IMG/VR virus record: IMGVR_UViG_3300025301_000016
Span: 1 to 52,817 of that record
DNA: 52,817 bases
Strand: one strand, 5' to 3'
Source: a virus
The first letter of the stretch is position 1, and every line of letters starts with the position of its first letter. The notes beneath the pieces were generated by a model that worked only from the letters and a program-made list of their open reading frames with translations, had not been told where the DNA came from and did no database searches. Made by a program: the position numbers and the translations under genes. Below are positions 6,659 through 48,375 of this stretch, piece after piece.

Positions 6659-6668
6659 GAGAATAATA

Positions 6669-23700: not shown

Positions 23701-26700
23701 AATTAGAGCTTTCGCGAGAAGAATTAGAACAAGCACAGAATCAATTTACGTCTGATTTGGCTTTGCGTGATCGTCAGTTTGAAGAAGCGCAAGATCAGTT
23801 TGATGAGCAAATGGAGATCAACCAAAGAGACTTTGACGAGGGCGTGAGAGAAGCCAATAGGCAATTTGAAGAAGCGAAAGCTGTCAGTCAAAGGGACTTT
23901 GATCAATCAAAAAGTGTCAACCAAAGAGACTTTGATCAAAGCGTAAGTGAGGCCGGTAGGCAATTTGAAGAAGCGCAAAGGCAATTCGATCAAGGGATTC
24001 TTACTGAAGAACAGTTAGCCGCGGCTCAAAGATTGCATGAAACAGCTATGCAAACAGCTCAAACGACTCATGACCAAGCTATGCAAGACGCTCAAAGGGT
24101 GCACGAACAAAATCTAAATTCGCTTAACAGGACAAATGAAACAGACTTGCAAGCAAATCAATTGACATTTGATCGAGAAAATTTAAAGGCTGAAACAGAG
24201 ATGGCAAATGCTGACATAAAATATAAAAATAGCACTGTAACTGCAGATAAGGACATGCATTACGCAGAGATGGTCCTAAAGCGCGAAGAATTTCATGAAC
24301 AGAAAATGATTTATTTAAAAGAGAATCAGAAGTATTATGCGGAATTTGCCCAAAGAAAAGAGGAGTGGGATGATTCATTTGGCCTTGACGAAGATAAGTT
24401 TTTTGAAACTGCACGACAGTTTAATGAGCAATTGAAGGAAAGGGTAAAAGAATGGGGTGATCAATTCGGCTTAGACCAAGCACAGCAACAGGCTTTGATC
24501 CGTCAAATTGATAATCAAATTGTGAATTCCACTCGTGAGCTTTCATTGGCTATAGGAACTTCATGGGCTGGCATTACGGGACGAACGGGAACGGGGAAGG
24601 GTACAATTAGCTTTGATGACTTGGGACTTAAGATACCGAGGGCTGAAGTGTTGCAAGCTGCTGAACATGATCCAACTGTTTTATTAGATACAGACGAAGC
24701 TGAGGCATTTCGCGGTGGCTTTCTAGCTATGATGGGCAGAGAGGCAACAGATGAGGAGCTTATAACTTTATTAAATGGCAATTTGCTGGAGATTGAAGAG
24801 GGGATGCCCACATTAGAAGCGCGAGGTATGGCTTCTAATATAATGTCTCAGAATATGGAGCGGTTTGCTAAGTATGGTGCGATAGCCGAAGAGAATGGTT
24901 TAAATAGGGATCAGTTTCAAGCCGCTGTTAGAGAGTCGGATAGGCAGTGGAATCGCTTGACGTTGAATGTGGCTGATGAATTTGGATTGGACAATAACAC
25001 TTTCCGTATGGCTATACACAATCGAAATAATATGCGTCTTAGGGGCAAGGAAGAAAGTCAAATTGACGATTGGTTGCGACTGAAATTTGGCGATGACTTC
25101 GGTGCTTTTTTAAGGGCAGAAGATGCTTTTGACCAAGCTTTTGGATATCAACAATCAGAAATAGCTCGAGCAAACAATTTTGAAGATGAGCAATGGGAAC
25201 AAGCCAAGCATCAGGCTGATTTGCATGAGCAAAAAGTAGAGTCTACTTGGACGGGGATAACCGAAGGTAAGGCTCAGGAAACTGGACAAATTGGAATTAT
25301 GTCTGAGGCCCTGCCTCAAGCGCAGCGATCTTTTGTGGGCCTGTTTCAACAGATTGCCATAGATCCGGCGATGAGCGGAGCAGAGGTTGCCTATGAATTA
25401 AAAGACTTGCCTGAAGTAATGGAAACTCGGGAAATGATAGAAAATGCTTATGGCAAGTTAAATGATACAGATTGGAACAAATTGGTTGTGGATATGTATG
25501 AGTCATTCCGAGGGTCATATTCTTACAGTGATCCAGCAACGGTCGAATTCGAGTTTCCTGAGGATCTGGGCTTAGGTCGTCCCGTTTGGGGAACTAAAGG
25601 TGATAGGGGTACTGTACGCGGCGCCATCCCATGGTCTAAAAAGAATCCCGGTCAGAAATTCAGAGATAAGGCAATGCGTGACTGGAATGCGGGCCTTGAT
25701 TATACCGACGAACAGATCCAGTTGTTCGGATTTTTGCCGGGCATGGATATAGGGGGGTTTATAGAAGCATCAGCAGATGGCAATAAAGAGAGAGCGCGGG
25801 AATTTTTAAAAGTTTCGGCAGGCCCCGGTTGGGCCACTCAAAAGGCTGTTGATGCGGTTTTTGACTTTGCCTTTGGCAAGGATAAAACTCAACTTGAGGA
25901 GTTGATCGAGGACTTAGGCAAGGAATGGAGCGCTCATAAAGACATAATGAATGGTATGTTCGAGCGTTATTATAGTGGAATAGAAGACGGCACTTTGGAT
26001 ATGCGAGATCCAGCAACTGGAGAAAAGTGGGAGTTGCCTAGAAGGTCTAAATTTGTAAAACCACGCCTTTATCGAGATTGGTTTCAGGCTGCGGCAGGTG
26101 AGGAATACGCAGGATATCCTACTATCGAAATCCCCGGCCAGCAAAGATATGTAGGAATGCTTGCGATGTCTCAGGATCTTATGAAGGGGATGGAGGTGGA
26201 CGTTGAGGTGACTTACATAGATGAATTTGGGGATCAACACAAGAAATTGTTAACGATACCGCCAAGGCAAGAAGGTGAACGGGTGCCGTGGGAAGAAAGG
26301 GCAGATTACCTTAAGCGGAGCGTAGAAGGTGAACTGACAAATATAGTGGGCACAGTGGATGAGTTGGGACAAGAAGAGTTTGACGCTCGACACCACGCTT
26401 TTTTTGGAGAGGAGGCGGGCCCCGGAACGTTTGTTGACGCAAACGGCAAGCTTGTGAAAGCGCTTTATGGAGTATCCTCTGACGCAGCACGGGCTCTGGC
26501 TTCTACAGGGGTTTATGAATGGGAGAGCCAAGGAAGACGATGGTCGGTGAGCATAGAAGAACTTCCCTTCTTAGCTGAGCGGGAAGAGTTCAAGCGAATG
26601 CAAGGAGGGTGGAACTTAAAGGGGGATGTTGACACTACGGGAGATGGCTTGACTTTTGAGCACGTAAATGCCGACTGGCTTACGGAATTAATAACGACAA

Positions 26701-27110
26701 ACCCAGATATTGTGCAATCATTGTTTGCTTTAATAAACGGTGGCAATTTCTCGCCAGAAAGACAGGGAGCAGCAATAGCTGCTGGCGGTGATGGGAGTGG
26801 GAGTGGTGCCCAAGATTTTGGACAAATGATTGGACAGAACTTACCGGCGATATTATCGCTTGCACCGCAGATACTACCATTGCTAGGTGGATCTGATCCC
26901 GGAATGAAAGAGAATATTAAACTCCTCAGGCAATCTCCTGCCGGATTGAATATATATGAGTTTACATATAAACCGGGACTTGGTCCTGTAGGAGTTTATG
27001 AGGGCGTGATGTCTACTGAGATACCATCTGAGGCAGTATTAAAAGTCCCCGGTGAATTTGATAGAGTGTTCTATAACAAGATTGATGTTGACTTTAAAAG
27101 AGTAGGATAA
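20784..27110 (+). CDS. Giant coiled-coil virion protein with S74-type chaperone end
   Basis: A 2108-aa protein. Residues about 1-840 are acidic and charged, with KR/E-rich helix near 35-80 and Asp/Glu/Pro linkers near 510-640. A very long coiled coil covers about 853-1240, with degenerate repeats of RQFEEAQ and QRDFDQS near 1012-1075. A mixed globular part follows to about 2030. The C-terminus GSDPGMKENIKLLRQSPAG (from residue 2036), then GLNIYEFTYKPG and VYEGVMSTEIP, has the Ser-Asp...Lys-Glu-Asn-Ile pattern of the peptidase S74 intramolecular chaperone, which trims itself off fibres and spikes. It probably forms a trimeric fibre or appendage. Confidence 0.72.
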   Translation: MANGNNTARVSNATNGTFYDESDYARVTSGQDTTEIERSREQTRRLDEEREEREAEEARQEAERKRKTEERTKRKRKAQDWYNSNSALQNPLLTDGDRQNALYIAENTGIPEASTWLNNAINARQSEADEGTARDEADIRPIDVEEEQAIQPINEDYVEGLRDAGYSEEQVQQVINLWNDTGKIDKVTQLVEGFVTPAQEEENKQSAYTEEGDEFDRIRSGLWDRYIKAGGTDDQASADEFNRIATTHTGQRYGLEPLHEKYVNAEKLEEWVGAQEDRYRIAQDNEQKTGNLRAQKYKTEFLPKWEEFSASPRNYLTPSLTNEQSAELMEVYLAAYNDLDLLGDPSDWSQDAEGNLILPDQIQAEAIKRANEAWDTWLAQNAPLITEEADPNDPDNQYGGTHTLDDIVRDQQGNPVLDASGNQMKIYRTVEGGQGYYRPSEGQIQWVDLEKAGQEGPEAAIETEEQKRARYDTKVTEYATAYGLTEDQVAEMVAASENELNPFGKLDLWIQQSGLLPVADRPVVVGEEEVVIGEGEPDDEPDEIVDLDDPSTWELDKDAPSGPDIHEKKVGKKKRTNQPKDDEEVITEDGEPGEYDPNDPYGTVTPKTTITDEEDSDPDADVVDPATAMAQTSAENKGQGWDAIGSEYIKEYKRMGLNDDQIKTVNDYMTENEVGPDDAGLNAYIDGLVVDNAVTIDDATVKTRNGEDIDPTTGLTASEDEMLEEAYAAGGLVNFLSQIDELQDSIDFFFEDPETLFEDILNMEFDSEELNQAIRDGVNVAFEQRDAPFSETISQIDTVMQEMIDSMGYDPGEMRELRRANIDQDVDDAYERMARMGLLAPGATGEYDRAVIEMEKERMRHYRDVDIEINQKALEVEGQNFQLFTDAITKLGDLNLSEYMFTGDITERASQFDRDFELRRTELEVANQQFEAGLISSHELQAAELAFRRQELIQENYKWATDFQNRQVEFQAQLELSREELEQAQNQFTSDLALRDRQFEEAQDQFDEQMEINQRDFDEGVREANRQFEEAKAVSQRDFDQSKSVNQRDFDQSVSEAGRQFEEAQRQFDQGILTEEQLAAAQRLHETAMQTAQTTHDQAMQDAQRVHEQNLNSLNRTNETDLQANQLTFDRENLKAETEMANADIKYKNSTVTADKDMHYAEMVLKREEFHEQKMIYLKENQKYYAEFAQRKEEWDDSFGLDEDKFFETARQFNEQLKERVKEWGDQFGLDQAQQQALIRQIDNQIVNSTRELSLAIGTSWAGITGRTGTGKGTISFDDLGLKIPRAEVLQAAEHDPTVLLDTDEAEAFRGGFLAMMGREATDEELITLLNGNLLEIEEGMPTLEARGMASNIMSQNMERFAKYGAIAEENGLNRDQFQAAVRESDRQWNRLTLNVADEFGLDNNTFRMAIHNRNNMRLRGKEESQIDDWLRLKFGDDFGAFLRAEDAFDQAFGYQQSEIARANNFEDEQWEQAKHQADLHEQKVESTWTGITEGKAQETGQIGIMSEALPQAQRSFVGLFQQIAIDPAMSGAEVAYELKDLPEVMETREMIENAYGKLNDTDWNKLVVDMYESFRGSYSYSDPATVEFEFPEDLGLGRPVWGTKGDRGTVRGAIPWSKKNPGQKFRDKAMRDWNAGLDYTDEQIQLFGFLPGMDIGGFIEASADGNKERAREFLKVSAGPGWATQKAVDAVFDFAFGKDKTQLEELIEDLGKEWSAHKDIMNGMFERYYSGIEDGTLDMRDPATGEKWELPRRSKFVKPRLYRDWFQAAAGEEYAGYPTIEIPGQQRYVGMLAMSQDLMKGMEVDVEVTYIDEFGDQHKKLLTIPPRQEGERVPWEERADYLKRSVEGELTNIVGTVDELGQEEFDARHHAFFGEEAGPGTFVDANGKLVKALYGVSSDAARALASTGVYEWESQGRRWSVSIEELPFLAEREEFKRMQGGWNLKGDVDTTGDGLTFEHVNADWLTELITTNPDIVQSLFALINGGNFSPERQGAAIAAGGDGSGSGAQDFGQMIGQNLPAILSLAPQILPLLGGSDPGMKENIKLLRQSPAGLNIYEFTYKPGLGPVGVYEGVMSTEIPSEAVLKVPGEFDRVFYNKIDVDFKRVG

Positions 27111-29608: not shown

Positions 29609-32600
29609 ATGAGCATTTTAGAACAGGTCGCACAGTTACCAAAGTTTGGCGTTGACACTCCATTTTATACTGCCGACGACTTGGATCCTGATGATGGTGT
29701 ATATAGTTCAAGGGATTACAATGCCTATGAAGGCGACTTAGTCAATATAGATGCAGGCTTCATGGACTTGATGGAGACCCGACCTCGAAGGGACTCTAGA
29801 GTCTATCCTAATACTGGCTTAAGTACACGAGCAAGGACGCCGGGTGAAGATCGAGCTGAAAGATCGGCTGTTACTGAGTTTAGAAATAATGCCGAGTGGA
29901 TTCGACAAATGGGCTTGGAGGACACCTATAATCGCGACATGGCCGTAGCTAACAATGAAGTGTTCCCCGGAAGCATGGCCACTTTTACCGATGGACTCTT
30001 TGATTTTCTCCAAGCTGGTAATTTTGCAACGGCCACAGGAGTGGATGAATTTTTCGATCATTACAATCGCACTGGTGGAGACTTTTTTGATAGTGCGTAC
30101 GAGGGCTTCAAGCAAGCAGCAATTGAATTTTCCGATGCATTTACGCCAGACTTTTATACAGATGGCAGGGCTAGGAAGATGGTTTTTGGGGATGTTCTCA
30201 GGGATCATTTTGGATTTGAAGATAGTGAAAACCAGATGTTTTATGAGTCTGGCACGGCCGTAGCTGGATTATTCTTAGACATCTTCTTAGATCCATTGAC
30301 CTACACTGGGTATGGATTGGGCAAATCCTTAAGGATGTTTCGTGGCATTTCTCCGGTACAACATGCGGAACGGTACATAAAGCATACTGCTCCCGGACGA
30401 GCTTTCCGCGCTAAGTTTGTTCCCAAGTCCTTGCTAAAGGGTTTGCAAGAAGGGGAAAATGCAGAAGACATTGCTGCCTTTATGAATGGCAGATTAAAAG
30501 AGGGCGGCACCCCAATAACTGCTGACGAGGTAAAAGAATCAGCTGCAGAAGTTCTTGCTTCTTTGGGCACCAGAGAGCAAACAATACAAATGGAAGAGCA
30601 GTTATTGCAGCAAGAATTGGTAAATCTTTTTTCGGGGTTTAACAATGCTGAATTGCGGCTGATGGGAACATACATGTTAGATCAGCCTAATTTTGGCAAG
30701 GTGATTAGGGAGCAGCTGAATATTAGCGATAAGCAAAAGCAGAGAATGGAAGATGCTGTTGGAACTTTTCGTAAGACATTAGATAAATGGTTTAACAATG
30801 AAGTTAGTGTAGGTCTTTTATCTGAGAATCAAATGCGCTCTAACTACGCCATGGCGCTTGCAACGCAAACTGGTGAGTCAAAGGCCCTGTTTGAGCTTAT
30901 GGCACGAATACGATTTGGTAGCTTGTCTGGCAAGTTTATGGACGATATAGCTCCGGGGTATAGTGTAGGGACAAAAAATGGGATAGCGTTTTTTGAAAAA
31001 GAAAAGGGATATCCAACATTAATATCTCGTATGCTTGATGGCATTAATACGGAATCAAACATTGCCTTGTCTGGCTCAAAGCGTGGCATAGAAAGTATCC
31101 GACGTATTAATACTAAAAAGTTATTCGATACCGTTCTATCGGATGATCGCATTGCCATGAAGATAGACGATGGCATTGCCAGAGATAGATTTCATCCACT
31201 ACATGATGATTTAAAGAAGTATGGAATGAAAATGTGGTCCGGTCCCGTAGGGGACTTGGGAGATACGGTTACGTATGCACTACCTGAAGCGCTGGTGGAT
31301 CATCTAGATGAAGCTAATAAAGTATTCTCTGACCCTTCAGAGTTGAATGGATTCTGGAAAGGCTTTAAGGATGTGCAAAACATCTGGAAGTCATATGCCT
31401 TAATGTCTCCCGGTTATCATATGCGAAATATGTATTCCAATGTTTTTAATAATGCAATAGCTGGTGTTAAAAATCCCAAACAATATGCAGCCGGGATGGT
31501 AATGCAAGTAGAGGATACGTCCAAATTGCCATGGTCTGTTCGATCAATGGTTGAATTTATATTGGGCGGTCATAAAACATTGGATACCATAAAGTTCCCC
31601 GGAAAAGATCCAGATACTGGCGAGCAAGTAATGCTAACGGGTCGCGAGCTTAAAGACGCAGGGATGGCGCAAGGGATAGGGGCTGGCGGCCTGTATGCCC
31701 ATGAAGGACCGGCGACTGTGGAGTCCGAATTATTACGACAGTTTGGTGGAGTCCTGCGAACTCCAGATGGTTTTGACATTAAAACTATGGAGGATACGTG
31801 GGGGAAGACAGCTGACCGTCGTCGTGAAATGGCTAACATGATTCGCAAGGCTGCTCCTCAAGTTACAGATAAGCAGGCATTAGACACTGCGTCTATTTAT
31901 GATACAATCGCAGCGCGATGGGCCTTGCAGCGTGGCCTAACTCCAAAGGATTTCTATAGAGAAAATCTTTCAGAAATTCTTCCGGGCTTGCCCCCCGGCC
32001 TTGAACTCGATGAGCCTTCAAGAAATTTACTATTTGACAAGCTCGAGATGGGTGAATTTTACAATCGAGTGCAAAGACATATTGACACGCAGTTTGAACG
32101 ACATGCTTCTCAGTCTAAAAAGCCTATGAATGCACAGACTCTTTTAGACTCTTTGCAAACGACGAAGATGAAAGGGGAAAAAGAAGTTTCTATTTCAAGG
32201 CCCTTTAAGCAAAGGGACGTCGATTGGACGGGGGTACAAAAGTTTCTGGAAAGGCGTATTGATGACTGGACGGAACACAAGGAAGCTTGGAACAATCTTA
32301 GTGACGCTGAAAGGGCAAATTCAAAGGCTCCTACTAAGGTTCCTCATGTAGACAGGGCGGCCGTTAATGCTTGGCTGAGTTCTAAGGAAGGATTTAAAAA
32401 AGGCAGGATAACAACGCGGTTAAAGAATGGAAGGGGACAAGAGGGATGGGAGTCGGCAACCATAGATGCTGCCCTTAAAGCTGTCACGCGTAAATATGGA
32501 TCTAAAGGCAAGCCAAGAATAACTACGCCAACCGTAGGAAAGGTGCTTGAAGACAAAACGGCCATATCCACTAGAGAACAACTTCAGCACCGAGTAGATG

Positions 32601-35600
32601 AGATAGACGGGGAAATCTCATCTATTAGAAATGAAGCCGGGCCTACTTATGATGGATCCGCACAAGAAGGCGCCTATGATGAAGGGGGCGTTTTTGTTCC
32701 CGATGATCCTGACAGCTTTGACGCTTATCAGCAAACGATGAAAGACGATGACGCGCATGAGGCGATTGAAAGGGCTTTTGTGTGGGGCGATGATATTTAT
32801 GCAGAGGGAATAGAGAACGGGAGGGGCCTTGACGAGCTGGCGCTTACCGGCTTGAATGACGGATTTGAAGAAACTGTTATTGGCGGTCTTTCTAAGGAGC
32901 TTCAAAATGACCCTCAATTTGTAAGCGATTTGTATGCGATCAATGACTTAAGAAAAGAAAGGTTTTTATTATTAGAGGATGTAAGATTGGGGCCGGGGTG
33001 GAGGAAGAATAATATAGAAACTAGTTCGCCTGAAGCCCTTCGAAAGTGGGAGTTGAAAAGGGAAAAGGATCGAGCAGATGGAACAGCGGCATATTTTGAA
33101 TTAAAGGGTTGGGAGCATACGGGGAAAGGCAATCTAAGTATTGAGCGAACCTCGCAAGTAGATCCGGATGAATTTATGGGATACTCCAAGCCAGAAGAGG
33201 AGCAAGTTAAAGGACTTGATGAGTGGTTTGAGGTTTATTTCGACAGTACACTTGACGCACATGCGCCGCATCAAAGGCTTATTATAAGGTCCGAAGAGGA
33301 GTTAGAAAGTTGGCTTAATGCCAATAGGCCAAAGCCCATAGTAAATCATCCAGATGCTATAGATGATTTCCCCGGTGGAGAAAACTACGATGAGTGGCTG
33401 ATAATGTGGGAGCCGGGTGAGAGAACTATAAAGAACGGGAATGCCGTAGAAACAATTGCCGAGCAAAGCTACTCTAAGGCTGGTGGTGGAGGTGAAGATA
33501 TAAGCTTACACGAGGCGCATTTTAGCAAATTAAAAGGGGACGACCGTCCGTCTAATGTAATTGCCCATGCTCGAACTAAAGATTATATCGACGAAAATGG
33601 AGATCGAACTCTAGTAATATTAGAGCTTCAAAGTGATTGGTCACAAAAACTTGGCAGGCCCATAAGTGATGAGTTAGAAACGGCTGGTGAATTTCTGCCG
33701 CTATATGGATTAAACCATAAGTATTTCAGAGACAGCCATGGTGCCGAACAAGCCTTTTTAAAAAACAACGTTGACCCAGATTCGGCTAATAATAAAAAAG
33801 CAACAACGGCTCCATATACATGGGACACCCTTCCTAAAGAAGAAAGAGTTTTCAAAGGAGAGATGTGGGTTAATAAAGAGAAAAAAGTTATTGAGGACTT
33901 TTACAGGCTAGAGGCACCTCATGAAATAAAGCATCTCCATTCCACTAAGCAAAACCCTCTTTATGACATTGAGTGGCGTCTTTTTAAAAATAAAGATCTG
34001 GACGGGAATCTAATACCTAGAAACGAACAAGAGATGACTTCGGTGTGGAGCCTAAATGGAAAGGGAATGCGTGATGCTTCAACGCCACAGCAAGCTCGAG
34101 AGTATGCAATGGATATGATTAACAAAAAAAGGTATGAATTTTCTGTTCCTGATAGTCCCTTCCATGATGATAAGGCTTGGGTTGAAGTGGCTGCGAAGCA
34201 CATAGCAAGAGAAGCAACAAGTAGGAAGTATGACAGAATTGCATGGCTTCGCAGCGAAGATCAAATTCGTCGTATGGAGCAGTGGGGAAGGGACGCACAT
34301 CAAGATCAGGTTTCAACCGTCTTAAGGAATGCTTTAAGTAATTCCCAGTCTTTAGTGAAAATGTTTAATGGCCTCTCGAGGGATATGGAGTGGGGGAATA
34401 CCGTTGAGCTAACTCGTATACCTGTAGAAAGAACGCCCTTTACGCCCACCCGAAGGGGCACAGACTTAGACCCAGAGACTGGCTTTGCCAAAGTAGACCA
34501 CCAGCCACTTTCTGTTAGAATGGCTCGACGGTCAAAGGGTGTTACTGATGCCGAGCAAGCGGCCATTATTCGTCAAACGAAAAGCTATGGCAATCGCTTT
34601 AAGCGAGACATTCCAATCAAGGTTTTAAATGATGCAATAGATGCAACATGGGATATGCGATCTCGTTATAAACGAGGGACGAAAATTCATAAGCAATCGG
34701 GCGAGGTTGACGCAGATGCACATAAAACAGATTCCATGGACAAAATAAAAGACAAGGCATTGTATCAAGAGATCCAAGAGGCTGCAGACGAAGAAGTGCA
34801 AATAGCATTACGGAAACAAACAGAGTCTCTTGAGGAATTAGAATCAAGGTATGGGAAAAGAGGAGAATCAAAGTGGGAGGTTTCAAGCTCAAGGGAGGGG
34901 GGAGCAGAGGATCAGTATCTTAAGATTCTGCGAGAAACAGATGATGAATTAGAGCGAGTTGCAGATGGCCTTGATGAGATCTTGCTAGCCGAATTTGATT
35001 TTATTCCCGAAGAGATGATGTACGGAAGTATGCTTACTGAGAATCAGAAGAATCAAATTAAAGCCGCCGCAGAAAGAGTTTTTCAAGATCAGCATGTAGA
35101 ATTTAGCTTTGACAATATGGCTCGCAATGCTGCTACAGGAACGCGTGGGCTTACTATTAATTTGCAACAGCTAATGGATGAGTTGGGGAGCAATACAAAA
35201 CTAAAGTCACGCCTTGAAGATAACTTATGGACTATTCCAAGGGATCTTCATTATGGAATAGATGATGACTATGGGCTAATCAGTGGGATGGTTAACTCCA
35301 TTAGCTTGAAGCCTTGGAGGGCGCAGCCGCATAAGGGGATTCCGTTAATGCAGCGCGAGAAGCCGTCCATACGTATGCGTACGGAATCGGATATCCTGTA
35401 TCAAAAAGGCAGGCATCCTTCTGCATATGCTATCGATGGTTACGGTAGTGGCATGAAGGCGTTGTCTGCTGATCAAAGAAGGGCTTACGACAAGCTGTCT
35501 CCTAGTCAACAGGAGCAAGTTCGAAAGGCTCAAAAGAAGGCGCGAGAACTGCGACACAAGCAGGGTTATGGCGTTGACACAGAATACATTCCGGGAGGCG

Positions 35601-38254
35601 ATTCCTTATATAATTATCGCAAATCGTTAATTTCTAAGCCTGATAATACTATGCTCCAGCCTGCAAGGGTTAGAATAGCAGTTGCAGAAATCATTGAAGA
35701 AATGCCTGATACCTATAAAGGCATAAATGTTACGCGACCGGGATATGCAACGGACGTGCAAGATCGAATTGGACTTTTTTATTCAAGGTTGGATGATCAC
35801 ATTGATTCCGGGCAGCTTGTAAGATCAAAAAGTGTTACAGATTTTCTATCTATTAATTTCAATAAGATCTTAGAAGATCAAGGGTACACATTTAAAGAAT
35901 TAAAAGACTTAGGGACGCATACTTCAAAATCAGACGATGTTGAAAAGGCCGTGGGCGATCACATAAAATATTATGACGGAGAGGAATGGAATCCTGTAGT
36001 AGTAAACAGAGCGTTCATTGAAAAAATTATTTCTGACGATGAGTTGTTGAAGTCTAAGTCAACGTTTACTCCAGAAAATAGAAGGGCCATTAGCCATGCC
36101 CTGCGAGGGTATGCAGAAGTTAATAAGCTAGCAAGATTTGACACTTGGACAACCAAGCAATTCGATACTTTTATTAGGCTCTTACTAAAGACAAGACAAA
36201 GAGACGCTGGAAAGCAAAGTCAGGTGCGGGAGTTCTTCAAGCAAAACTTCAAGCACACAACAGAAGAGCCCCCACTGACTGTTTCCTCAGATGTTGAGAT
36301 TGCCGATGAAGCTTGGCGTCAACAGATGGCTGCGCTGTCGAGGATTCCTGAGAGTTCTGAATACACACAACAGTTGCAAGACTTGCGAGCCCTTGAAAAC
36401 TCAGACTTAGATCTTAAATCTGATGTGATCGAAAAAATTCAGCAGCGCATAGAAGACTTGCAGGTTGGGCAAATCACTAAGCACAATGAGATCTTTCCAA
36501 GTACTACAGTTAGGGACGCTCAATTGCTTCCAACGTACCAAGGCAAGAAGACATTTGATATTCCAAGCTCTTTTAATCTAACGGCATTGAAAAGATTTAA
36601 GAAGAACAAGACTTGGTGGGAAGCTTTAGTGCCTTCTGAGCAAAAGAGGATAAATAATTCTATCAAGGAACTGGAAGACCTTAAAAGCAAAGGCCACTAC
36701 GAAGAAGTTAAAAAGAAAATACGAGGGAAGCAGCATACGATTGGAAAGTTGACAAGTAAAGGGTATTTAGTTCAGCGCCAGAAGGGTGATGACATCTTAG
36801 GCGCGGTTGAATTTACCGATGACGAGATTGTACCGTTCAGGGCACAAGGAACAGCTGTTATGTATGCAGCTGAAGGAGCTAACCCTTCGACTTTCATACA
36901 TGAAATGGGACATATCATTCGTCGATTTCTGATTGATGAGGGAGACGAGCTTGCAATTAATCGGTGGGTCTTTGGGGAAAAGGAAGCTCTTATTGCACGA
37001 AAGACGGGAGTTCCATTAGAGTGGGGCGTAGACGAAGAGGAGAAGTTTGCTGAAGCTTTAGAGAATCTTGTGATCAAAGGGATCAAACCTCATGGTGCGC
37101 TGAAGGTATTAGAGGGGCCATTTGAAAGATTGCAAGTCAATCTCCAAGAAGTTTATAAAGATATTAAAAAGTCCGGAGCACAGTTCGATGGTAATGTAGA
37201 AGAGGTGATGCGAAGGGTATTAGGTCGTGGCACTGAACCAAATCCAGAGGAGCTTCTTACGGCTAAGGCTCTTATCCAAAGTTCACAAAAGAAATACCAG
37301 AAAAAGTATGGCCTAGAGGTTCCAATTAAAGAAAGGATTAAGGCCGCTACTGGCGGTCCGGTTATAAAGGGAAGAAACCTAGTCCAATGGAACCAAGCTA
37401 TTGGTCATGCTTTTGAAAACAACGCACGGTGGGCTCACTTTATTCAAAAATGGCAAGACGGAAATAGCTTTGAGGAGGCAGGCCAGAGCGTTAAGAGATT
37501 CTTGTTTGATTACAATGAATTAACGCCCTTTGAGCGAGATGTTATGAAGACAATTATTCCGTTCTATACTTGGATGCGGAAAAATATTCCTCTTCAAATA
37601 GAAATGTTAATAGAGCGGCCTGAATTCTACGCTAAGATTCCTAAGTTTATGGAAGAAGTGGAAGGCATGTCCAATGCCTTGGCTGATGACAATGGAAAGA
37701 TTCCGACTCCAGATTACTTTGATGAAGTGAACGCAATGAGATTGCCGTGGCAAAATGACGGCCAGCCTGTTTATCTATCGCAAGATCTTCCCTTCCAAGA
37801 TTTAAATCGTCTGAATTATAAGGACATGCTTTCTCAGATGAGTCCCTTCTTAAAAATCTGGGGAGCATTGGCGATAGACAAAGGGTATGATTTCTTTTTG
37901 GAGTCTCCCATTGAACAGTTCGCAGGAGAGCCGGCGGTCATCGACCTCTTTGGAGAACCATCCGAGTTGCCCATCAGTAAGAAGATGGAGTATGCTATTA
38001 AGACCATGGTGCCACCTGCCGGTAAGGCACTGAGATTTCTTGATAAGGCAGCACAAGGACGCGCAGAAGATCAGCTCTTTAGAGAGGCGCTTGGCCTGTC
38101 TGTTACATCGGTCGATGTCGATGCTATTGTTAGGTCTCAGAGGTATAAGAGAAAAGAAGTTAGCAGTCTGTTGCGAAGAAAAGTTCGGAGGAGAATACAA
38201 CGATTTGGATTAGAAGAGGGGCTTAAGAAGTCCGGTAGTAGGCTGGTGAACTAG
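29609..38254 (+). CDS. Giant multidomain virion (probably ejected) protein with metallopeptidase motif
   Basis: A 2881-aa protein taking 8.6 kb. Recognisable blocks, in order: a segment SPGYHMRNMYSNVFNNAIAG (about 601-620), an LELQSDWSQ motif (Q at 1341) followed by VPDSPFHDD (from 1513) and KYDRIAWLRSEDQ, an HEMGH zinc-peptidase motif (2431-2435) with a downstream Glu-rich helix, and the C-terminal ELTPFERDVMKTIIPFYTWM block (about 2637-2656). These blocks recur in giant phage proteins that are packaged in the head and delivered with DNA. Metalloprotease activity and ejection are inferences. No Shine-Dalgarno is clear (GAAAGAATCAC before ATG). It ends convergently, overlapping the - strand gene by 4 nt. 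Confidence 0.78.
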   Translation: MSILEQVAQLPKFGVDTPFYTADDLDPDDGVYSSRDYNAYEGDLVNIDAGFMDLMETRPRRDSRVYPNTGLSTRARTPGEDRAERSAVTEFRNNAEWIRQMGLEDTYNRDMAVANNEVFPGSMATFTDGLFDFLQAGNFATATGVDEFFDHYNRTGGDFFDSAYEGFKQAAIEFSDAFTPDFYTDGRARKMVFGDVLRDHFGFEDSENQMFYESGTAVAGLFLDIFLDPLTYTGYGLGKSLRMFRGISPVQHAERYIKHTAPGRAFRAKFVPKSLLKGLQEGENAEDIAAFMNGRLKEGGTPITADEVKESAAEVLASLGTREQTIQMEEQLLQQELVNLFSGFNNAELRLMGTYMLDQPNFGKVIREQLNISDKQKQRMEDAVGTFRKTLDKWFNNEVSVGLLSENQMRSNYAMALATQTGESKALFELMARIRFGSLSGKFMDDIAPGYSVGTKNGIAFFEKEKGYPTLISRMLDGINTESNIALSGSKRGIESIRRINTKKLFDTVLSDDRIAMKIDDGIARDRFHPLHDDLKKYGMKMWSGPVGDLGDTVTYALPEALVDHLDEANKVFSDPSELNGFWKGFKDVQNIWKSYALMSPGYHMRNMYSNVFNNAIAGVKNPKQYAAGMVMQVEDTSKLPWSVRSMVEFILGGHKTLDTIKFPGKDPDTGEQVMLTGRELKDAGMAQGIGAGGLYAHEGPATVESELLRQFGGVLRTPDGFDIKTMEDTWGKTADRRREMANMIRKAAPQVTDKQALDTASIYDTIAARWALQRGLTPKDFYRENLSEILPGLPPGLELDEPSRNLLFDKLEMGEFYNRVQRHIDTQFERHASQSKKPMNAQTLLDSLQTTKMKGEKEVSISRPFKQRDVDWTGVQKFLERRIDDWTEHKEAWNNLSDAERANSKAPTKVPHVDRAAVNAWLSSKEGFKKGRITTRLKNGRGQEGWESATIDAALKAVTRKYGSKGKPRITTPTVGKVLEDKTAISTREQLQHRVDEIDGEISSIRNEAGPTYDGSAQEGAYDEGGVFVPDDPDSFDAYQQTMKDDDAHEAIERAFVWGDDIYAEGIENGRGLDELALTGLNDGFEETVIGGLSKELQNDPQFVSDLYAINDLRKERFLLLEDVRLGPGWRKNNIETSSPEALRKWELKREKDRADGTAAYFELKGWEHTGKGNLSIERTSQVDPDEFMGYSKPEEEQVKGLDEWFEVYFDSTLDAHAPHQRLIIRSEEELESWLNANRPKPIVNHPDAIDDFPGGENYDEWLIMWEPGERTIKNGNAVETIAEQSYSKAGGGGEDISLHEAHFSKLKGDDRPSNVIAHARTKDYIDENGDRTLVILELQSDWSQKLGRPISDELETAGEFLPLYGLNHKYFRDSHGAEQAFLKNNVDPDSANNKKATTAPYTWDTLPKEERVFKGEMWVNKEKKVIEDFYRLEAPHEIKHLHSTKQNPLYDIEWRLFKNKDLDGNLIPRNEQEMTSVWSLNGKGMRDASTPQQAREYAMDMINKKRYEFSVPDSPFHDDKAWVEVAAKHIAREATSRKYDRIAWLRSEDQIRRMEQWGRDAHQDQVSTVLRNALSNSQSLVKMFNGLSRDMEWGNTVELTRIPVERTPFTPTRRGTDLDPETGFAKVDHQPLSVRMARRSKGVTDAEQAAIIRQTKSYGNRFKRDIPIKVLNDAIDATWDMRSRYKRGTKIHKQSGEVDADAHKTDSMDKIKDKALYQEIQEAADEEVQIALRKQTESLEELESRYGKRGESKWEVSSSREGGAEDQYLKILRETDDELERVADGLDEILLAEFDFIPEEMMYGSMLTENQKNQIKAAAERVFQDQHVEFSFDNMARNAATGTRGLTINLQQLMDELGSNTKLKSRLEDNLWTIPRDLHYGIDDDYGLISGMVNSISLKPWRAQPHKGIPLMQREKPSIRMRTESDILYQKGRHPSAYAIDGYGSGMKALSADQRRAYDKLSPSQQEQVRKAQKKARELRHKQGYGVDTEYIPGGDSLYNYRKSLISKPDNTMLQPARVRIAVAEIIEEMPDTYKGINVTRPGYATDVQDRIGLFYSRLDDHIDSGQLVRSKSVTDFLSINFNKILEDQGYTFKELKDLGTHTSKSDDVEKAVGDHIKYYDGEEWNPVVVNRAFIEKIISDDELLKSKSTFTPENRRAISHALRGYAEVNKLARFDTWTTKQFDTFIRLLLKTRQRDAGKQSQVREFFKQNFKHTTEEPPLTVSSDVEIADEAWRQQMAALSRIPESSEYTQQLQDLRALENSDLDLKSDVIEKIQQRIEDLQVGQITKHNEIFPSTTVRDAQLLPTYQGKKTFDIPSSFNLTALKRFKKNKTWWEALVPSEQKRINNSIKELEDLKSKGHYEEVKKKIRGKQHTIGKLTSKGYLVQRQKGDDILGAVEFTDDEIVPFRAQGTAVMYAAEGANPSTFIHEMGHIIRRFLIDEGDELAINRWVFGEKEALIARKTGVPLEWGVDEEEKFAEALENLVIKGIKPHGALKVLEGPFERLQVNLQEVYKDIKKSGAQFDGNVEEVMRRVLGRGTEPNPEELLTAKALIQSSQKKYQKKYGLEVPIKERIKAATGGPVIKGRNLVQWNQAIGHAFENNARWAHFIQKWQDGNSFEEAGQSVKRFLFDYNELTPFERDVMKTIIPFYTWMRKNIPLQIEMLIERPEFYAKIPKFMEEVEGMSNALADDNGKIPTPDYFDEVNAMRLPWQNDGQPVYLSQDLPFQDLNRLNYKDMLSQMSPFLKIWGALAIDKGYDFFLESPIEQFAGEPAVIDLFGEPSELPISKKMEYAIKTMVPPAGKALRFLDKAAQGRAEDQLFREALGLSVTSVDVDAIVRSQRYKRKEVSSLLRRKVRRRIQRFGLEEGLKKSGSRLVN

Positions 38255-42205: not shown

Positions 42206-42994
42206 TTAAAATGGTAAATCATCATTTTCAAACGAAAAATCTGTACCGGGAGGCGCCAACCCTTTAACTTGCGTGATATATTCTTTAAGTTGGGCGACCG
42301 TTGCAGACTCTAAGTCTTCTGTTTCGATGAACTTCATACGACACTTAGGAATATGCGCTTCTTCTAATTCAATTACCTTTTCTGCATGTATAGCTTGTTT
42401 GATTAGGTCAGCCTTGGTAGGAGTAGAGCTTTTCTTTTTTGGCTCCTCCTTTGCAAGCTCCTCCTCTGTCACTTCTTCAGTGGGTCCGAACAGTTTATCT
42501 AACTGTTCTTTAGCAGCAGATGACTTCTCTGGCTTCAAAGGGATGTCGTCATATCTATTCTGCTTTGATTCTGGCTTCTCCCCTTGATCTTCGAGCCTCC
42601 AAAAAGTCTCAATGAAAGATGTTATATCTCCAGAGCCATCAGCCTTAGGTCTATGGGCTACGACATAGCCAATTCGAACAGCAACGAACTCTTCTACGGG
42701 GTCAAATTCGGTTGCCTTTGACTCATCTGCAGTAAGCTCTCTTCCAAGAACCTTCTCACGATGTTGTCGAAGATTTGAATTGGGAGCAGAACTTACTGTG
42801 TCCCATATTGTTATGATGTAAGGCTGACCATCATCACGAAACGATGTGCTGCTTTCAATTTTAAGTGGGAGTTTTACCTTCGGTCCCCATTGAGTTTCGA
42901 ATTCTCTTGGCTCTTCAACTGCAAAGAAGAACCCTTCATGTTGACCTGCCGGGTGATGATCCCACTCTTGTCTTGGTATAGCCACTGTTGCCAT
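42206..42994 (-). CDS. Putative single-stranded DNA-binding protein
   Basis: A 262-aa protein. Residues about 1-140 look beta-rich and could form an OB fold (GFFFAVEEPREFETQWGPKV, then VAVRIGYVVAHR). A charged linker (about 145-195) follows, then a helical region. The last residues FENDDLPF match the acidic hydrophobic tip (DDIPF) by which SSB proteins recruit partners. GGAG lies 6 nt before the ATG. It is the only candidate replication protein in the window besides RusA. The fold is inferred; the acidic tip is directly visible. Confidence 0.68.
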   Translation of the reverse strand: MATVAIPRQEWDHHPAGQHEGFFFAVEEPREFETQWGPKVKLPLKIESSTSFRDDGQPYIITIWDTVSSAPNSNLRQHREKVLGRELTADESKATEFDPVEEFVAVRIGYVVAHRPKADGSGDITSFIETFWRLEDQGEKPESKQNRYDDIPLKPEKSSAAKEQLDKLFGPTEEVTEEELAKEEPKKKSSTPTKADLIKQAIHAEKVIELEEAHIPKCRMKFIETEDLESATVAQLKEYITQVKGLAPPGTDFSFENDDLPF

Positions 42995-43101: not shown

Positions 43102-43887
43102 ATGAATACGTCCCTTAAACGCCCCGCAGCAGAACAACTCTTACCAGAAGAAGTTCCCTTAGAACCCAAGCATTATCAACCAGATACAACAATGCAGTCT
43201 CTGGTTGACCAGAAGCCATTGACGCATGGACTTCATGGTCATCTTGACGAGCGAGGGTATTATCCCCCTGTCGATATGAGTTGGGATCAATTCAACGAAG
43301 ATGTTTCGCTGCTGTTCCACATGGAACGATGGATTAATTGGGCTATTGGAGATCTATTGAATTATGCCAAGGGCAGATGGCCGAATAGGTATGAACATTT
43401 CTGCGATCAGACTGGCAAATCATTACAACATTTATACAATCTCTCTTGGGTATCAAGGGTTTTCCCTCCTGAGACACGCCACTTTAATGATGAGGGTATT
43501 AGTTGGTCCCATCACCTTGAAGTAGCTGGGTTGCCAACCCCACAGCAACGAGAAGAATGGCTTCAGGCTGCTATAGCAGGGTCGTGGACAAGATTAGAAC
43601 TTCGTAATAGACGTAATGGAAGAGAGCCTGTTGATCCATTCAGAACCAAGGATACCATGGTTGAGGTGCCCGAAGGGATGACTTCTCACATGCGTCAAAC
43701 GATCTCTAAATTCCTATCTGTATTTTCTGGGTGGAGTCCAAAGGTTAAGGAAACTATAGTATGCCCTACTCCATGGGGCAAAATTACTATTTCTTTGGAT
43801 TTAGATTCCGTTCCGGTAGAAGAATCTACTGGAACAGGTAAGCCAGTAAGAATACTTACCGACAAACCCGACTTCCCCCATCCATAG
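43102..43887 (+). CDS. Hypothetical protein, sole + strand gene of the right half
   Basis: A 261-aa protein. Residues about 65-165 (WINWAIGDLLNYAKGRWPNR, then LQHLYNLSWVSRVFPPETR, SWSHHLEVAGLPTPQQREEW) form helices in a layout seen in phage or plasmid proteins that probably bind DNA through a helical domain. I do not recognise a named family with certainty. The ATG has no Shine-Dalgarno sequence and may be leaderless; a TTGACT lies about 30 nt upstream. It is divergent from the SSB-like gene, so it could be a regulator, and ends 1 nt from the next - strand stop. Confidence 0.7.
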   Translation: MNTSLKRPAAEQLLPEEVPLEPKHYQPDTTMQSLVDQKPLTHGLHGHLDERGYYPPVDMSWDQFNEDVSLLFHMERWINWAIGDLLNYAKGRWPNRYEHFCDQTGKSLQHLYNLSWVSRVFPPETRHFNDEGISWSHHLEVAGLPTPQQREEWLQAAIAGSWTRLELRNRRNGREPVDPFRTKDTMVEVPEGMTSHMRQTISKFLSVFSGWSPKVKETIVCPTPWGKITISLDLDSVPVEESTGTGKPVRILTDKPDFPHP

Positions 43888-44691: not shown

Positions 44692-44889
44692 TCACCGATC
44701 TAATTCTTCTTCCAATACATGCGTAACGACCAACGTTGTCTCCATCTTCTGCCCTTCTGAACCAAAGTGGCGGTAGATGAGATATATCTCGCCATCTTCT
44801 TTCCCTAGGTCTACAGACCAAGGCAATTCATCTTTCGTGAGACTAACAATTGAAAGCCATTTATCTACTGTGGATTGTCTTTCAGACAT
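44692..44889 (-). CDS. Small hypothetical protein at the end of the conjugation operon
   Basis: A 65-aa protein, mostly alpha/beta (DGEIYLIYRHFGSEGQKMET). Its ATG overlaps the E1-like gene's end by 8 nt (ATGTCTGA), so it is made together with the E1-like protein. No family recognised. It could be an accessory or a target of the system; that is only from context. Confidence 0.65.
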   Translation of the reverse strand: MSERQSTVDKWLSIVSLTKDELPWSVDLGKEDGEIYLIYRHFGSEGQKMETTLVVTHVLEEELDR

Positions 44890-45643
44890 CTTGATTCTCC
44901 TCTAAAATAGTTGGCGTTAATTCTCCAGATCCTATAGAAAAGGTCAAGTCAGCGTCTATTGGAGCATCTCGTAGCCACTTGGCAAACTGAGACACCATTA
45001 AACCTGCTGCTAATGAAGCACTATACACAGTGCTTTGTGTAGTGCAGGCTCCCTGAAATGCTTCGCTCCCTGAAAACAGAGTAGCTGGATAATTCATAAA
45101 AGATTCATGGTTTTCATTCCATGCAGTGATTATTCGCAACACTTCGCCAGCCATCCGACCGTCACACCAGAAATCAAAGTTTCTTCTATTGTTAATCCAT
45201 ATATGCTTACGGGTATCAATGGAATCTACGCAACAGAATACAGCTGTGGGGCCGCTATGTTCTCTAAGCATGGACGACTTCCATCGAGACGTATTAGTCT
45301 TGACATCTGTGGCTGAGTTGATCATCTGTAGATTTTCAGCTACTGCTAGCACCTTATACTGCCCAAGAAATTCCGTAGACCATGCTTGCGGTCCCAAATT
45401 AACCACCTCAATGGAGTCATGGTCGGTCAAGCTAATAGATGGAACTCCCATAGCTGACAGCATACAAGCTACTTGCCTACCTATAGCACCACATCCAATA
45501 ACATGAGCTTCAATTTCCTTCAGCCTATCAGGTGGTATTAATTCTTTTTGTCTAACATCTCGTGTTAACTCTTGCGTCTTAACAGCTTCAACAGAGGATA
45601 CATCAGACAGCGTAGCCCCTATGATCCCATCCGTCGTCTCCAT
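44882..45643 (-). CDS. E1/ThiF-like activating enzyme
   Basis: A 253-aa protein with the E1/MoeB/ThiF fold. GCGAIG (50-55) is the nucleotide-binding loop, DHDSIEVVNLGPQ (74-86) is the Asp/Asn-Leu/Gln motif, K97 follows in GQYK, and CVDSIDTRK (138-146) carries the conserved Asp and Arg. C200 in QGACTTQST is a possible thioester cysteine. Such enzymes adenylate the C-terminus of a ubiquitin-like protein using ATP and pass it on as a thioester. I start at ATG 45643; a TTG at 45652 is an alternative. It overlaps the JAB gene by 41 nt and lies in one operon with the E2-like and Ubl genes. Confidence 0.85.
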   Translation of the reverse strand: METTDGIIGATLSDVSSVEAVKTQELTRDVRQKELIPPDRLKEIEAHVIGCGAIGRQVACMLSAMGVPSISLTDHDSIEVVNLGPQAWSTEFLGQYKVLAVAENLQMINSATDVKTNTSRWKSSMLREHSGPTAVFCCVDSIDTRKHIWINNRRNFDFWCDGRMAGEVLRIITAWNENHESFMNYPATLFSGSEAFQGACTTQSTVYSASLAAGLMVSQFAKWLRDAPIDADLTFSIGSGELTPTILEENQDV

Positions 45644-46304
45644 CTGATCCAAAGTAGTCTTCCTCCTCAGCTTTTGAGTTAGTTATGCTATTGCCTGTCT
45701 TAAAATTCTCCCCATGATAACCCTTGTATTGGCCAAAATCATATGAGCTAAAGTTATTTTTATTAGAAGAGGTAATAGTTGTGAATGATCTGGTGACAGT
45801 GCTTACTTTCTCTTCTAATTCTTTTGCCCAATCATTAGGATTAGCTTGTGTAATTGGCAAACTCCATTCAATTTCTATTGAAGGGAGCGTAATGAAGCCA
45901 CAATCTGGATGTGTTATCCACAAATGCCCCTCACTTGTATCACCATCTGATCCCATGATAGCCATTAATGACCAGTCACAGTCAGTAAACTTCTCTTTAA
46001 ACATTTCCCAGTCTGTACTAGAGGGAGTCGTGCATTTACTGGGGTGGGTATGTATCCAAATACGAAGGCATTCACTTGGATGGCGTCCTGATGCAACTTG
46101 ATCTTCAACATATTCAGCCAATGCCTCATCATCTAACTCGACTGTTGCTGCGGTGCACTCTTGTTTAATCAGGTGAAACTCTGTTACCAGTAGTGGATCT
46201 TCGGTAGAGCTTACTCCAAATCCTCCTATTTCAGTATCGGACAAAGTGCACATATACCGAAGCTTTGCCCATGCTGTTGGAGCCATGCGTAATCGAAGTG
46301 CCAT
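45603..46304 (-). CDS. JAB/JAMM-family isopeptidase
   Basis: A 233-aa protein. The JAMM zinc-peptidase motif is complete: E25 in TEIGGFG, then H85-T-H87 followed by seven residues and S95-S-T-D98. Eukaryotic relatives remove ubiquitin, and prokaryotic ones process or remove ubiquitin-like proteins. The C-terminal about 70 residues are disordered and Asp/Ser/Asn-rich. AAAGGAT lies upstream of ATG. It is between the E2-like and E1-like genes, so it probably trims or removes the Ubl encoded at 47680. Confidence 0.88.
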   Translation of the reverse strand: MALRLRMAPTAWAKLRYMCTLSDTEIGGFGVSSTEDPLLVTEFHLIKQECTAATVELDDEALAEYVEDQVASGRHPSECLRIWIHTHPSKCTTPSSTDWEMFKEKFTDCDWSLMAIMGSDGDTSEGHLWITHPDCGFITLPSIEIEWSLPITQANPNDWAKELEEKVSTVTRSFTTITSSNKNNFSSYDFGQYKGYHGENFKTGNSITNSKAEEEDYFGSDGDDGWDHRGYAV

Positions 46305-46316
46305 GCTATCCTTTCT

Positions 46317-47678
46317 TTAAAGAGGTTGATATTCTGATAATGCTGTAGCGGATTCTAATTCATTTGTGGTTTGACCTGAAGCTCCAAATATTGGACTCTC
46401 ATTTTCCTCAGCCTCAAGGTCTTGCTCATTTTGTCGTTTTTCTGCTAGTGCAAACAGGACTTCTGCATTATGTGCACTGAGGCAGCGATCACAAAATCTA
46501 CTTTCGGGAGTATAACATTCATCTACCCCATCGTGACTGCAAGTTTTTACATGATAACTGCAGAAAATTTCATCACAATTGGAGCAGGTCCATGTGCAAT
46601 CACCGCATATTGAATCTTCACATCCCGATTGCTGACAATAATGCAAATAGTCCTCATCATATATAGTCACTCCGCATTCGGTACAACTCTTACCGGTCCC
46701 ATGCCAACGCGATAATGACCTATAAGGACTTTCTACTTCTCCATCATAAAAGAGGACGCTGTTTATTAGCAGGGCTGCATCGGTAAATCTTTGTTCAGAT
46801 AAGGCATTACCCAAGGCCGTTGCTGCATTCCCCATGCATATTACATGGTCACTCACATTAGGATGTGTGACATCGTCAGAATCAATTGGATAATTGGGAG
46901 TTATAGCACGAACTAGTGGAGGATCTGTCCTTGGCGAGCGGTCAATCCCATAGAAAGAGCGGAAATGTATTTCAAATTTCCCCAAATCAATTGTTTCTTG
47001 TAAGTCATTGGGATCATCAAATACAACAGGCTCTTTGGTGATCACACTAAATGTTCCCTGCATTAGCTCATAGGCGCTTGGCTCACTTGCCGAAGGTGCC
47101 TCTGTTGTTACGTAGACCTCACCAAATTCTTTCTCAAGAGCTACTAACTCGTCATAAAAGAACTGTCGAGAGGTCGTATGATCCTCTGTCCAAAATGGAC
47201 TGGTGCCGGGTAGAACTACAGGGGCCTCTCCATGATAAAAGCTCTTAAGGTTGGCTTTCCATTCAGGATACGGCTTAACTTTTAAGTCCTCTATAGAGGC
47301 GAGGAATGCGCTTTCATAATTCTGTAGGATAGTTACAAGGTCATCATGTATATATTTCAATCTTGAAACATCAACGTCAATTAAGCTATGCCTATGTGCG
47401 GGAGCTGCCGCAAGAAAAAATGGCAGCTCATTTTCATTATCTACAAGCTTTTTAAAACTATCACGAGAATTATCCCGCAATCGATTAAGAGATTGATGCA
47501 TGAGAATCCAACGTGTACTAGGATAAGCTTCTGGTGCGTCATGTGGCTCGTGATTGAATTGTTTTGCGGCAAGAGCTTCTTGTTCTAAGCGGACAAATCT
47601 ACGAGTGTCTGGTTTCATCCAGCACTCGTAGATCCAGCCAGCCAGCTCTTGCGTAATTGGAAGAGCGGCCTTTGCCAT
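46317..47678 (-). CDS. E2-like conjugating domain fused to a Cys-rich RING/treble-clef domain
   Basis: A 453-aa protein. Residues about 1-185 are helical and unrecognised. Residues about 205-315 fit an E2 (UBC) fold: FEIHFRSFYG, DPPLVRAITPNYP, then THPNVSDHVICMGNA, where HPN (272-274) precedes C281 like the catalytic Cys of E2 enzymes, followed by FTDAALLINSVLFY. Residues 332-399 are Cys-rich (CTEC, CGDC, CSNC, CSYH, CDRC and further Cys), enough for two or more zinc sites as in RING or treble-clef E3 domains. It would transfer the Ubl to targets. The start is 1 nt after the Ubl stop. Confidence 0.75.
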   Translation of the reverse strand: MAKAALPITQELAGWIYECWMKPDTRRFVRLEQEALAAKQFNHEPHDAPEAYPSTRWILMHQSLNRLRDNSRDSFKKLVDNENELPFFLAAAPAHRHSLIDVDVSRLKYIHDDLVTILQNYESAFLASIEDLKVKPYPEWKANLKSFYHGEAPVVLPGTSPFWTEDHTTSRQFFYDELVALEKEFGEVYVTTEAPSASEPSAYELMQGTFSVITKEPVVFDDPNDLQETIDLGKFEIHFRSFYGIDRSPRTDPPLVRAITPNYPIDSDDVTHPNVSDHVICMGNAATALGNALSEQRFTDAALLINSVLFYDGEVESPYRSLSRWHGTGKSCTECGVTIYDEDYLHYCQQSGCEDSICGDCTWTCSNCDEIFCSYHVKTCSHDGVDECYTPESRFCDRCLSAHNAEVLFALAEKRQNEQDLEAEENESPIFGASGQTTNELESATALSEYQPL

Positions 47679-47679
47679 T

Positions 47680-47907
47680 CTAATTCAAAGCCCCTTCCAC
47701 CTTAGTGGGAGTAATGGATATACGATCATCTTCCTTCAACTCATAGGAAGCTTGGACCTGATCCCGATTAACGCGGATCATATATCCATCTGGACGCTGC
47801 CCTTGCATCTGGGAAGCAAAGAATTGATCGATGGTTGTCCCATCGCCGGTCTCAACGTAGTCAGCGAAACCGCCGCCATCGTTGTTAATCAAGAATACTC
47901 GTGGCAT
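47680..47907 (-). CDS. Ubiquitin-like (beta-grasp, ThiS/MoaD-type) protein
   Basis: A 75-aa protein. The end RVNRDQVQASYELKEDDRIS then ITPTKVEGALN matches the ThiS/MoaD/ubiquitin-like pattern of a strand, an L-x-D-x-DR turn and a TPTKxEG tail. The middle has TTIDQFFASQ as the grasp helix. The C-terminus is EGALN, not GG, so removing A-L-N could expose Gly72; the neighbouring JAB could do that. GGAGAAAGAG precedes the ATG. It lies directly before the E2-like gene and is the likely substrate of the E1 and E2. Confidence 0.78.
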   Translation of the reverse strand: MPRVFLINNDGGGFADYVETGDGTTIDQFFASQMQGQRPDGYMIRVNRDQVQASYELKEDDRISITPTKVEGALN

Positions 47908-47937
47908 TCTCTTTCTCCATGTTAAGGGTTAACTACG

Positions 47938-48288
47938 CTAAACATCATTTACGTCAACTGTAAAGCGAGCTACTTCAGGAGTGGTTGTAAACTCCGTGGA
48001 CTTCCTGTACTTCTTGTTCCCATCACGCTTGTCAACTCCACCTTGCTCAATCAATTGAGTGCGGAGCTTGTCAATGGCGTGGTCAAACTCAGCCGTACTT
48101 ATATCACTCGCCTTTTTGTCTTCGGACAAATCCACTAGCTTGCCCATCAACAAAGACGCTTGATCGAATTCCAGCTCAGGTTTAAGCTCACGGACATCTA
48201 CTTGAGTGAACTTAAACAAGCCGAAAGTTTGTCCTCTTGTGGCCAACCTAATCTCAGTTGGCTCAACTTCATCCTGCTTGTCACTCAT
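47938..48288 (-). CDS. Paralogue A of the 51981-52526 protein, first gene of the conjugation operon
   Basis: A 116-aa protein. The core FGLFKFTQVDVRELKPELEF, with ASLLMGKLVDL, ISTAEFDHAIDKLRTQLIEQ and GGVDKR, aligns along its length with the protein at 51981-52526. It lies 5' of the Ubl gene with a strong AAGGAGAAGC binding site. It has no recognised domain. Being in the same operon it could be a partner, adaptor or target of the system. Its leader carries the first of three GC-rich hairpins. Confidence 0.72.
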   Translation of the reverse strand: MSDKQDEVEPTEIRLATRGQTFGLFKFTQVDVRELKPELEFDQASLLMGKLVDLSEDKKASDISTAEFDHAIDKLRTQLIEQGGVDKRDGNKKYRKSTEFTTTPEVARFTVDVNDV

Positions 48289-48332: not shown

Positions 48333-48375
48333 CTCCTCCCCACCACCCTCACTCCGTGAGGGTGGTGGGGAGGAG
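48333..48375 (-). repeat. GC-rich hairpin 1 (leader of 48288 gene)
   Basis: A perfect 20-bp inverted repeat: 48333-48352 with 48356-48375, 3-nt loop, arms made of CCACCACCC/GGGTGGTGG. It is followed on the + strand by GTACATCTT and then GATGCTGCTGCTGCTTACTG (48386-48405), identical to 51846-51865. It belongs to a family of three hairpins in - strand leaders. The stem is too long and lacks a T-run, so it is not a simple terminator. Confidence 0.8.

Follow-up and report, generated by a model that had tools for sequence, protein, structure and literature searches.

A phage gene run encoding candidate components of a ubiquitin-like protein-conjugation pathway

Gene run and surroundings

The window analysed here comprises the whole of a 52,817-base IMG/VR virus record. 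Its + strand carries the terminase, capsid and tail genes, and its - strand carries an early, replication-side block. An initial annotation, made from the sequence alone, described four - strand genes in this block for a ubiquitin-like protein (Ubl), an E2-like protein, a JAMM isopeptidase and an E1-like enzyme. The coordinates, strand and order of all four were confirmed, and two more genes belong to the run. The six genes lie head to tail and are listed below in that order, followed by two features upstream of them.

47938 to 48288, - strand: 116-aa open reading frame, first in the run
47680 to 47907, - strand: candidate Ubl, ThiS/MoaD-type beta-grasp, 75 aa (Pfam ThiS, E=9e-4)
46317 to 47678, - strand: E2-like protein, 453 aa (HPNVSDHVICMG motif, ES..PY, lone Cys in residues 20-331)
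46464 to 46685, - strand: zinc-ligand-rich tail (residues 332-405) of the 453-aa protein, with 13 Cys and also His
45603 to 46304, - strand: JAMM/JAB isopeptidase, 233 aa (Prok-JAB and PADLOC JAB profiles; intact motif)
44882 to 45652, - strand: E1, ThiF-type adenylating enzyme, 253-256 aa (start ATG 45643 or TTG 45652; ThiF, E=5e-23)
44692 to 44889, - strand: 65-aa open reading frame, last in the run
48333 to 48375: inverted repeat just 5' of the first operon gene, two perfect 20-bp arms around a 3-nt loop
48380 to 49180: non-coding array of degenerate repeats, about 0.8 kb, just upstream of the operon

The four central genes are as tightly packed as had been claimed (1-12 nt apart or overlapping). 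The Ubl and E2-like genes are separated by 1 nt and the E2-like and JAB genes by 12 nt, while the JAB and E1 genes overlap by 41 nt or 50 nt, depending on whether E1 starts at the ATG or the TTG. The 116-aa frame ends 30 nt upstream of the Ubl gene, and the 65-aa frame shares 8 nt with the end of the E1 gene. An AG-rich stretch resembling a ribosome-binding site precedes each start in the run. Profile libraries gave no reliable match for the 116-aa protein and no match for the 65-aa protein.

The inverted repeat has no obvious T run. The array has the core GGACTGTGCTATGCTGTGCCGTACC and includes an 87-nt unit present in 1.8 copies at 98% identity; it is possibly an origin or other replication region, or a promoter or regulatory region.

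The location had been given as "late/early". The early, replication-side part of this description holds and the late part does not. Genes for RusA, SNase and an SSB-like protein with an acidic tail lie near the operon. The last of these (42206-42994, 262 aa) ends in FSFENDDLPF, an SSB-type acidic tail, and has no Pfam match. A gene resembling LmbU-family transcription regulators lies on the opposite strand at 43102-43887 (NCBIfam E=1.6e-20, below cut-off). Elsewhere in the record, two giant open reading frames, 20784-27110 (2108 aa) and 29609-38254 (2881 aa), have no Pfam or PHROG match.

The four candidate components

A profile search of each of the four proteins, proposed with the initial annotation, returned matches to ThiF, ThiS and Prok-JAB, the latter two below their cut-offs, and none for the 453-aa protein.

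The identification of an E1-like enzyme is well supported. In addition to its match to Pfam ThiF, the protein aligns to ThiF and MoeB of E. coli, and in this alignment the GxGxxG loop (GCGAIG) and the two Asp, Asn, Lys, Asp and Arg positions are kept, with C203 in register with the catalytic-loop Cys. The window E1 consists of a lone ThiF domain of 256 aa. It scores far below all curated equivalog cut-offs, including those for ThiF, MoeB and PRTRC; the best curated model is ThiF, at 66 bits where the cut-off is 159. A phage family, phrog_15670, is matched at E=1.5e-8; the same family is matched at 4.5e-12 in a jumbo phage and at 1.4e-36 in a crAss-like phage.

The signature of JAMM/JAB proteases is E...H[ST]H-x7-S-x2-D. 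It is intact in the 233-aa protein, as had been noticed, with E25 (in EIGG) followed by H85-T-H87-x7-S95-x2-D98. The protein matches Prok-JAB at E=1.4e-3 and the PADLOC JAB profile at E=1e-4.

The assignment of the 75-aa protein as a ThiS/MoaD-type Ubl can be kept in part: the match to Pfam ThiS is marginal and lies below the curated cut-off. Its C-terminus reads VEG(72)ALN, so that the last Gly is followed by three residues. Because a single Gly72 precedes ALN, trimming by the JAMM protein may be suggested.

The 453-aa protein can be divided into an N-terminal region (residues 1-165), a putative UBC-type core (about 166-325) and a Cys/His-rich tail (332-403). A hallmark of the E2/UBC superfamily is an HPN-type motif a few residues before the catalytic Cys. 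Such a motif is present here as HPNVSDHVICMG, which reads H272-P-N-V-SDHV-I-C281-M-G; C281 is the only Cys in residues 20-331, and ES..PY follows it by 35 residues. The combination H.H / C.G / ES..PY occurs at about equal distance in 12 of 12 E2-like proteins of crAss-like and Flavobacterium phages; among the remaining open frames of the window it is absent. Both motifs were defined after the sequences had been viewed; with this understood, the strict motif arose in 15 of 200,000 shuffles of the 453-aa protein, and its combination with ES..PY in 3 of 300,000. Alignment of these proteins used the core only, as a full-length MAFFT alignment misplaced the motif.

The earlier description of an E2-like protein whose tail is rich in Cys thus stands for the E2 motif and the 13-Cys tail, but not for the E2 fold. 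No match was found in Pfam, NCBIfam or PADLOC, the best PHROGs match had E=0.22, and no UBC/E2 profile of Pfam was matched even at E<=10. AlphaFold models reached a pLDDT of 34 for the window core, with few distant alignment rows, and 41 for a crAss-like E2-like protein; fold searches with these low-pLDDT models gave no meaningful fold match. Judged by motif and context, the 453-aa protein is probably an E2.

The tail holds its 13 Cys in residues 332-399, together with several His, and its spacing is C-x2-C-x12-C-x4-C-x4-C-x2-C-x3-C-x2-C-x4-C-x2-H. It is probably a zinc domain, to judge from these ligands. The initial annotation called it RING-like, a label that is not borne out: the spacing is not that of a canonical C3HC4 or C3H2C3 cross-brace, and profile matches to B-box, FYVE and RING_6 are weak (E 0.09-8), as are the B-box/RING matches among PDB chains (E 0.2-2). 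A non-RING treble-clef zinc domain is possible.

Relatives in phages and bacteria

The gene set had been thought unusual for a phage. Instead, the E1 belongs to a phage E1 family that recurs with Ubl-like and E2-like partners. Searches by tblastn with the window E1 found matches in crAss-like phages, Flavobacterium phages and Xanthomonas/Erwinia jumbo phages, and an HMM built from 12 phage E1s matches the window E1 at E=1.5e-26. In a tree of E1 domains, which has few outgroups and long branches, the phage E1s, including that of the window, lie on one side of a branch that has 94/91 support and is recovered in 90% of 200 bootstrap trees.

The crAss-like and Flavobacterium phages examined have the gene order Ubl-like, E2-like, JAMM, E1. 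An example can be found in crAss001, where gp79 (Ubl-like), gp78 (E2-like), gp77 (JAMM) and gp76 (E1) lie between the genes for primase and uracil-DNA glycosylase (UDG). The constant order in crAss-like phages is primase-Ubl-E2-JAB-E1-X-UDG, within the replication module. A crAss-like E1 query and the neighbouring E2-like query each matched 74 phage records, with identical organism counts; these records are kin, not 74 independent events. Phage genes of this set have been deposited as "thiamine biosynthesis" or as hypothetical, the crAss-like copies as thiamine biosynthesis.

The 12-member family of E2-like proteins from these phages has diverged until some pairs are only 16% identical. Its invariant positions nevertheless include P, N, R, Y-x-H-S-H, C-x-G and ES..G.PY. 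Active sites are kept in the JAMM and E1 proteins that accompany the family, and the Ubl-like partners have an invariant S-G followed by an extension. In the crAss-like phage cr106_1, an HNH-type open reading frame directly follows the KIKSG end of the Ubl and splits it from its C-terminal extension (3115-4390 of the examined locus). A fast-evolving gene of about 230 aa comes after E1 in every crAss-like cassette examined, with a mean identity of 23% (for example, 6669-7373 of one locus).

The window resembles the crAss-like (Steigviridae) cassettes in gene order, in homologous E1s, in an E2-like protein with H.H...C.G...ES..PY and in its place in a replication module. It differs in that the crAss-like E2-like proteins have no Cys-rich tail and have HSH where the window has HPN, the crAss-like Ubl has a long C-terminal extension, and the crAss-like cassette adjoins primase and UDG. 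Searches with HMMs built from the crAss-like E2, JAB and Ubl families gave no significant match to the window proteins, and profile-profile comparison of the E2 and Ubl was also insignificant. Pairwise hhalign of the window JAMM protein with crAss-like JABs gave E=0.0085 at a probability of only 5%, with the motif in register. The window Ubl, E2 and JAMM proteins are therefore linked to their crAss-like counterparts by position and motif, without significant sequence similarity.

The jumbo phages PhiXhv-12 and Ep032 encode a Ubl-like protein with a terminal GG, an 892-aa protein that combines HPHM...CLG with a Cys-rich C-terminus, and an E1. This cluster shares with the window a small Ubl-like protein, an E2-like protein rich in Cys towards its end and a homologous E1. 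Unlike the window, its E2-like protein is twice as long and has no significant match to that of the window, and no JAMM motif occurs within 6 kb of the E1.

No close relatives of the window E2, JAB and E1 were found in IMG/VR, nor of the E2 in GTDB genomes, and the DNA pattern for HPN[VI]..IC.GN was absent from both collections. A terminase search found an identical terminase on three contigs, all too short to span the operon.

Bacterial operons with the same four functional parts in adjacent genes have been described as types 6a-6e, from bacteria, plasmids and integrative elements, with E1 often fused to JAB or E2 (PMC1779556). The window shares with these types the adjacency of the parts and the lack of a rhodanese, and like their class 6 it has an E1-like gene adjoining JAB. 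The C-terminal Gly of their Ubl and the catalytic Cys of their E2 have candidate counterparts in Gly72, which would need maturation to become terminal, and in C281. None of them is described there as a Cys-tailed E2 in a phage replication module (PMC1779556).

A mobile-element operon of this kind is found on the mobilizable cyanobacterial plasmid pCRI9333.03 of Crinalium, whose E1 is similar to that of the window (E=4e-12). Its cluster differs in having two Ubls and the order E1-Ubl-Ubl-E2-JAB (3950-7427 of the locus). Its E2, unlike that of the window, is a small stand-alone UBC protein with HPNV..C (UQ_con E=1.5e-5, just below cut-off).

Several better-known systems were considered and rejected. 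The BilABCD system also has Ubl, E2, JAB and E1 in one operon, and consists of a tandem-Ubl BilA, an E2 with CEHH, and an E1 with inactive and active adenylation domains (PMC11354881). Bil had been named among such operons in the initial annotation; kinship with it did not survive this comparison. The window Ubl is single, has 75 aa and does not match BilA; the CEHH residues (C, E+6, H+8, H+13) are absent, the positions after C281 being T287, L289 and S294; and the E1 has one domain and matches BilD only at E=8e-6 over part of the model. Membership in CBASS Cap2/Cap3 was rejected as well, E1 and E2 being separate genes here and no CD-NTase being present among the operon proteins. For PRTRC, TIGR03736 scored 30 bits against a cut-off of 144.75, and the record has no PF14460 match.

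Proposed pathway and alternative explanations

Three things are observed: the gene set with its order, active sites that are intact in both E1 and JAMM, and the kinship of the E1 to phage E1s that accompany E2-like proteins. Taken together, they make it probable that the run encodes a reversible ubiquitin-like protein-conjugation pathway of the phage, acting early and located in the replication module. The JAMM protein would trim the Ubl after Gly72. The E1 would then adenylate the Gly carboxyl with ATP and, as its conserved site suggests, hold the Ubl on C203, from which the Ubl would move to C281 in the E2-like protein. The target may be chosen by this protein itself, through its N-terminal region and its zinc tail, in which case no separate E3 would be needed. 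The JAMM protein could later remove the tag.

An early role is indicated by the RusA, SNase and SSB-like neighbours here and by the primase, UDG and exonuclease neighbours in crAss-like phages. Since the cassette lies in an early replication/recombination module, the targets would most likely be host or defence proteins, or phage replication proteins, modified early in infection. The likeliest purpose is host take-over or counter-defence, which is favoured over defence of one phage against another.

That other purpose would involve the same chemistry: a Bil- or Cap2/Cap3-like system carried by the phage could tag proteins of rival phages, or a defence enzyme, and so prevent superinfection. Bacterial Ubl/E1/E2/JAB operons do act in anti-phage defence (PMC10097602; for Bil, PMC11354881), and the window E1 weakly matches the PADLOC E1-E2 and BilD models. 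Nevertheless, the window has no match to BilA, BilB or BilC, and its operon lacks a tandem Ubl, a CEHH motif following C281, a two-domain E1 and a CD-NTase. The crAss-like cassette, moreover, occupies a constant place in the replication module and not a variable accessory site; this points to a core role in infection. Superinfection defence is thus regarded as unlikely. It is quite unlikely that the 453-aa protein is a target or adaptor and that the Ubl is attached directly from the E1. The protein has neither fold evidence nor a profile match, as this explanation would allow; on the other hand, it has HPN..C with E2-like spacing and a lone Cys in its core, it shares ES..PY with the crAss-like partners, and H and C are invariant in that rapidly evolving family.

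Alternately, the Ubl could be a sulfur carrier that is trimmed by JAB, thiocarboxylated by the ThiF-type E1, and used as a sulfur donor for thiamine, molybdopterin, cysteine, or tRNA/nucleotide thiolation. A ThiS-type Ubl, a ThiF-type E1 and JAB are parts of bacterial sulfur-transfer clusters (PMC1779556), ThiF is the best curated model for the E1, and the deposited names of the crAss-like copies point the same way. Yet no thiG/thiH, cysM, rhodanese, SirA or thiolase gene is annotated beside E1 in the phages examined, and no such sulfur gene was found by profile among the window neighbours tested. In crAss-like and Flavobacterium phages the E1 instead has an E2-like partner in which the H..C site is invariant, and the window E1 falls far short of the ThiF cut-off. 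A sulfur-carrier pathway is quite unlikely on this evidence.

Protein conjugation in the service of host take-over or counter-defence remains the preferred explanation. The four-part Ubl/E1/E2/JAB kind is already known from bacteria (PMC1779556). What is new is a phage-type E1 together with an E2-like protein that has a Cys-rich tail, and the grouping, by sequence comparison, of the window E1 with E1s of crAss-like, Flavobacterium and Xanthomonas jumbo phages. A search outside the subscription literature found no paper tying the crAss-like cassette (ThiF) to ubiquitin-like conjugation, and priority is unproven; in the main text of the genome papers on crAss001 and crAss-like phages, the cassette genes go unmentioned.

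There is about an even chance that a broader statement is correct, namely that a so far unnamed, phage-specific Ubl-conjugation system serves several unrelated phage groups, cultured human-gut crAss-like phages among them, as a core early module that tags proteins of the host or the phage during take-over. The window would then be a variant with a zinc-binding, E3-like E2 tail.

Ubl conjugation in bacteria is known mainly as a defence against phages. If a conserved set in phage replication modules does carry out this chemistry, bacterial viruses themselves would use protein tagging. Because cultured crAss-like phages carry the cassette, filed as thiamine biosynthesis, laboratory phage-host pairs in which this can be tested already exist.
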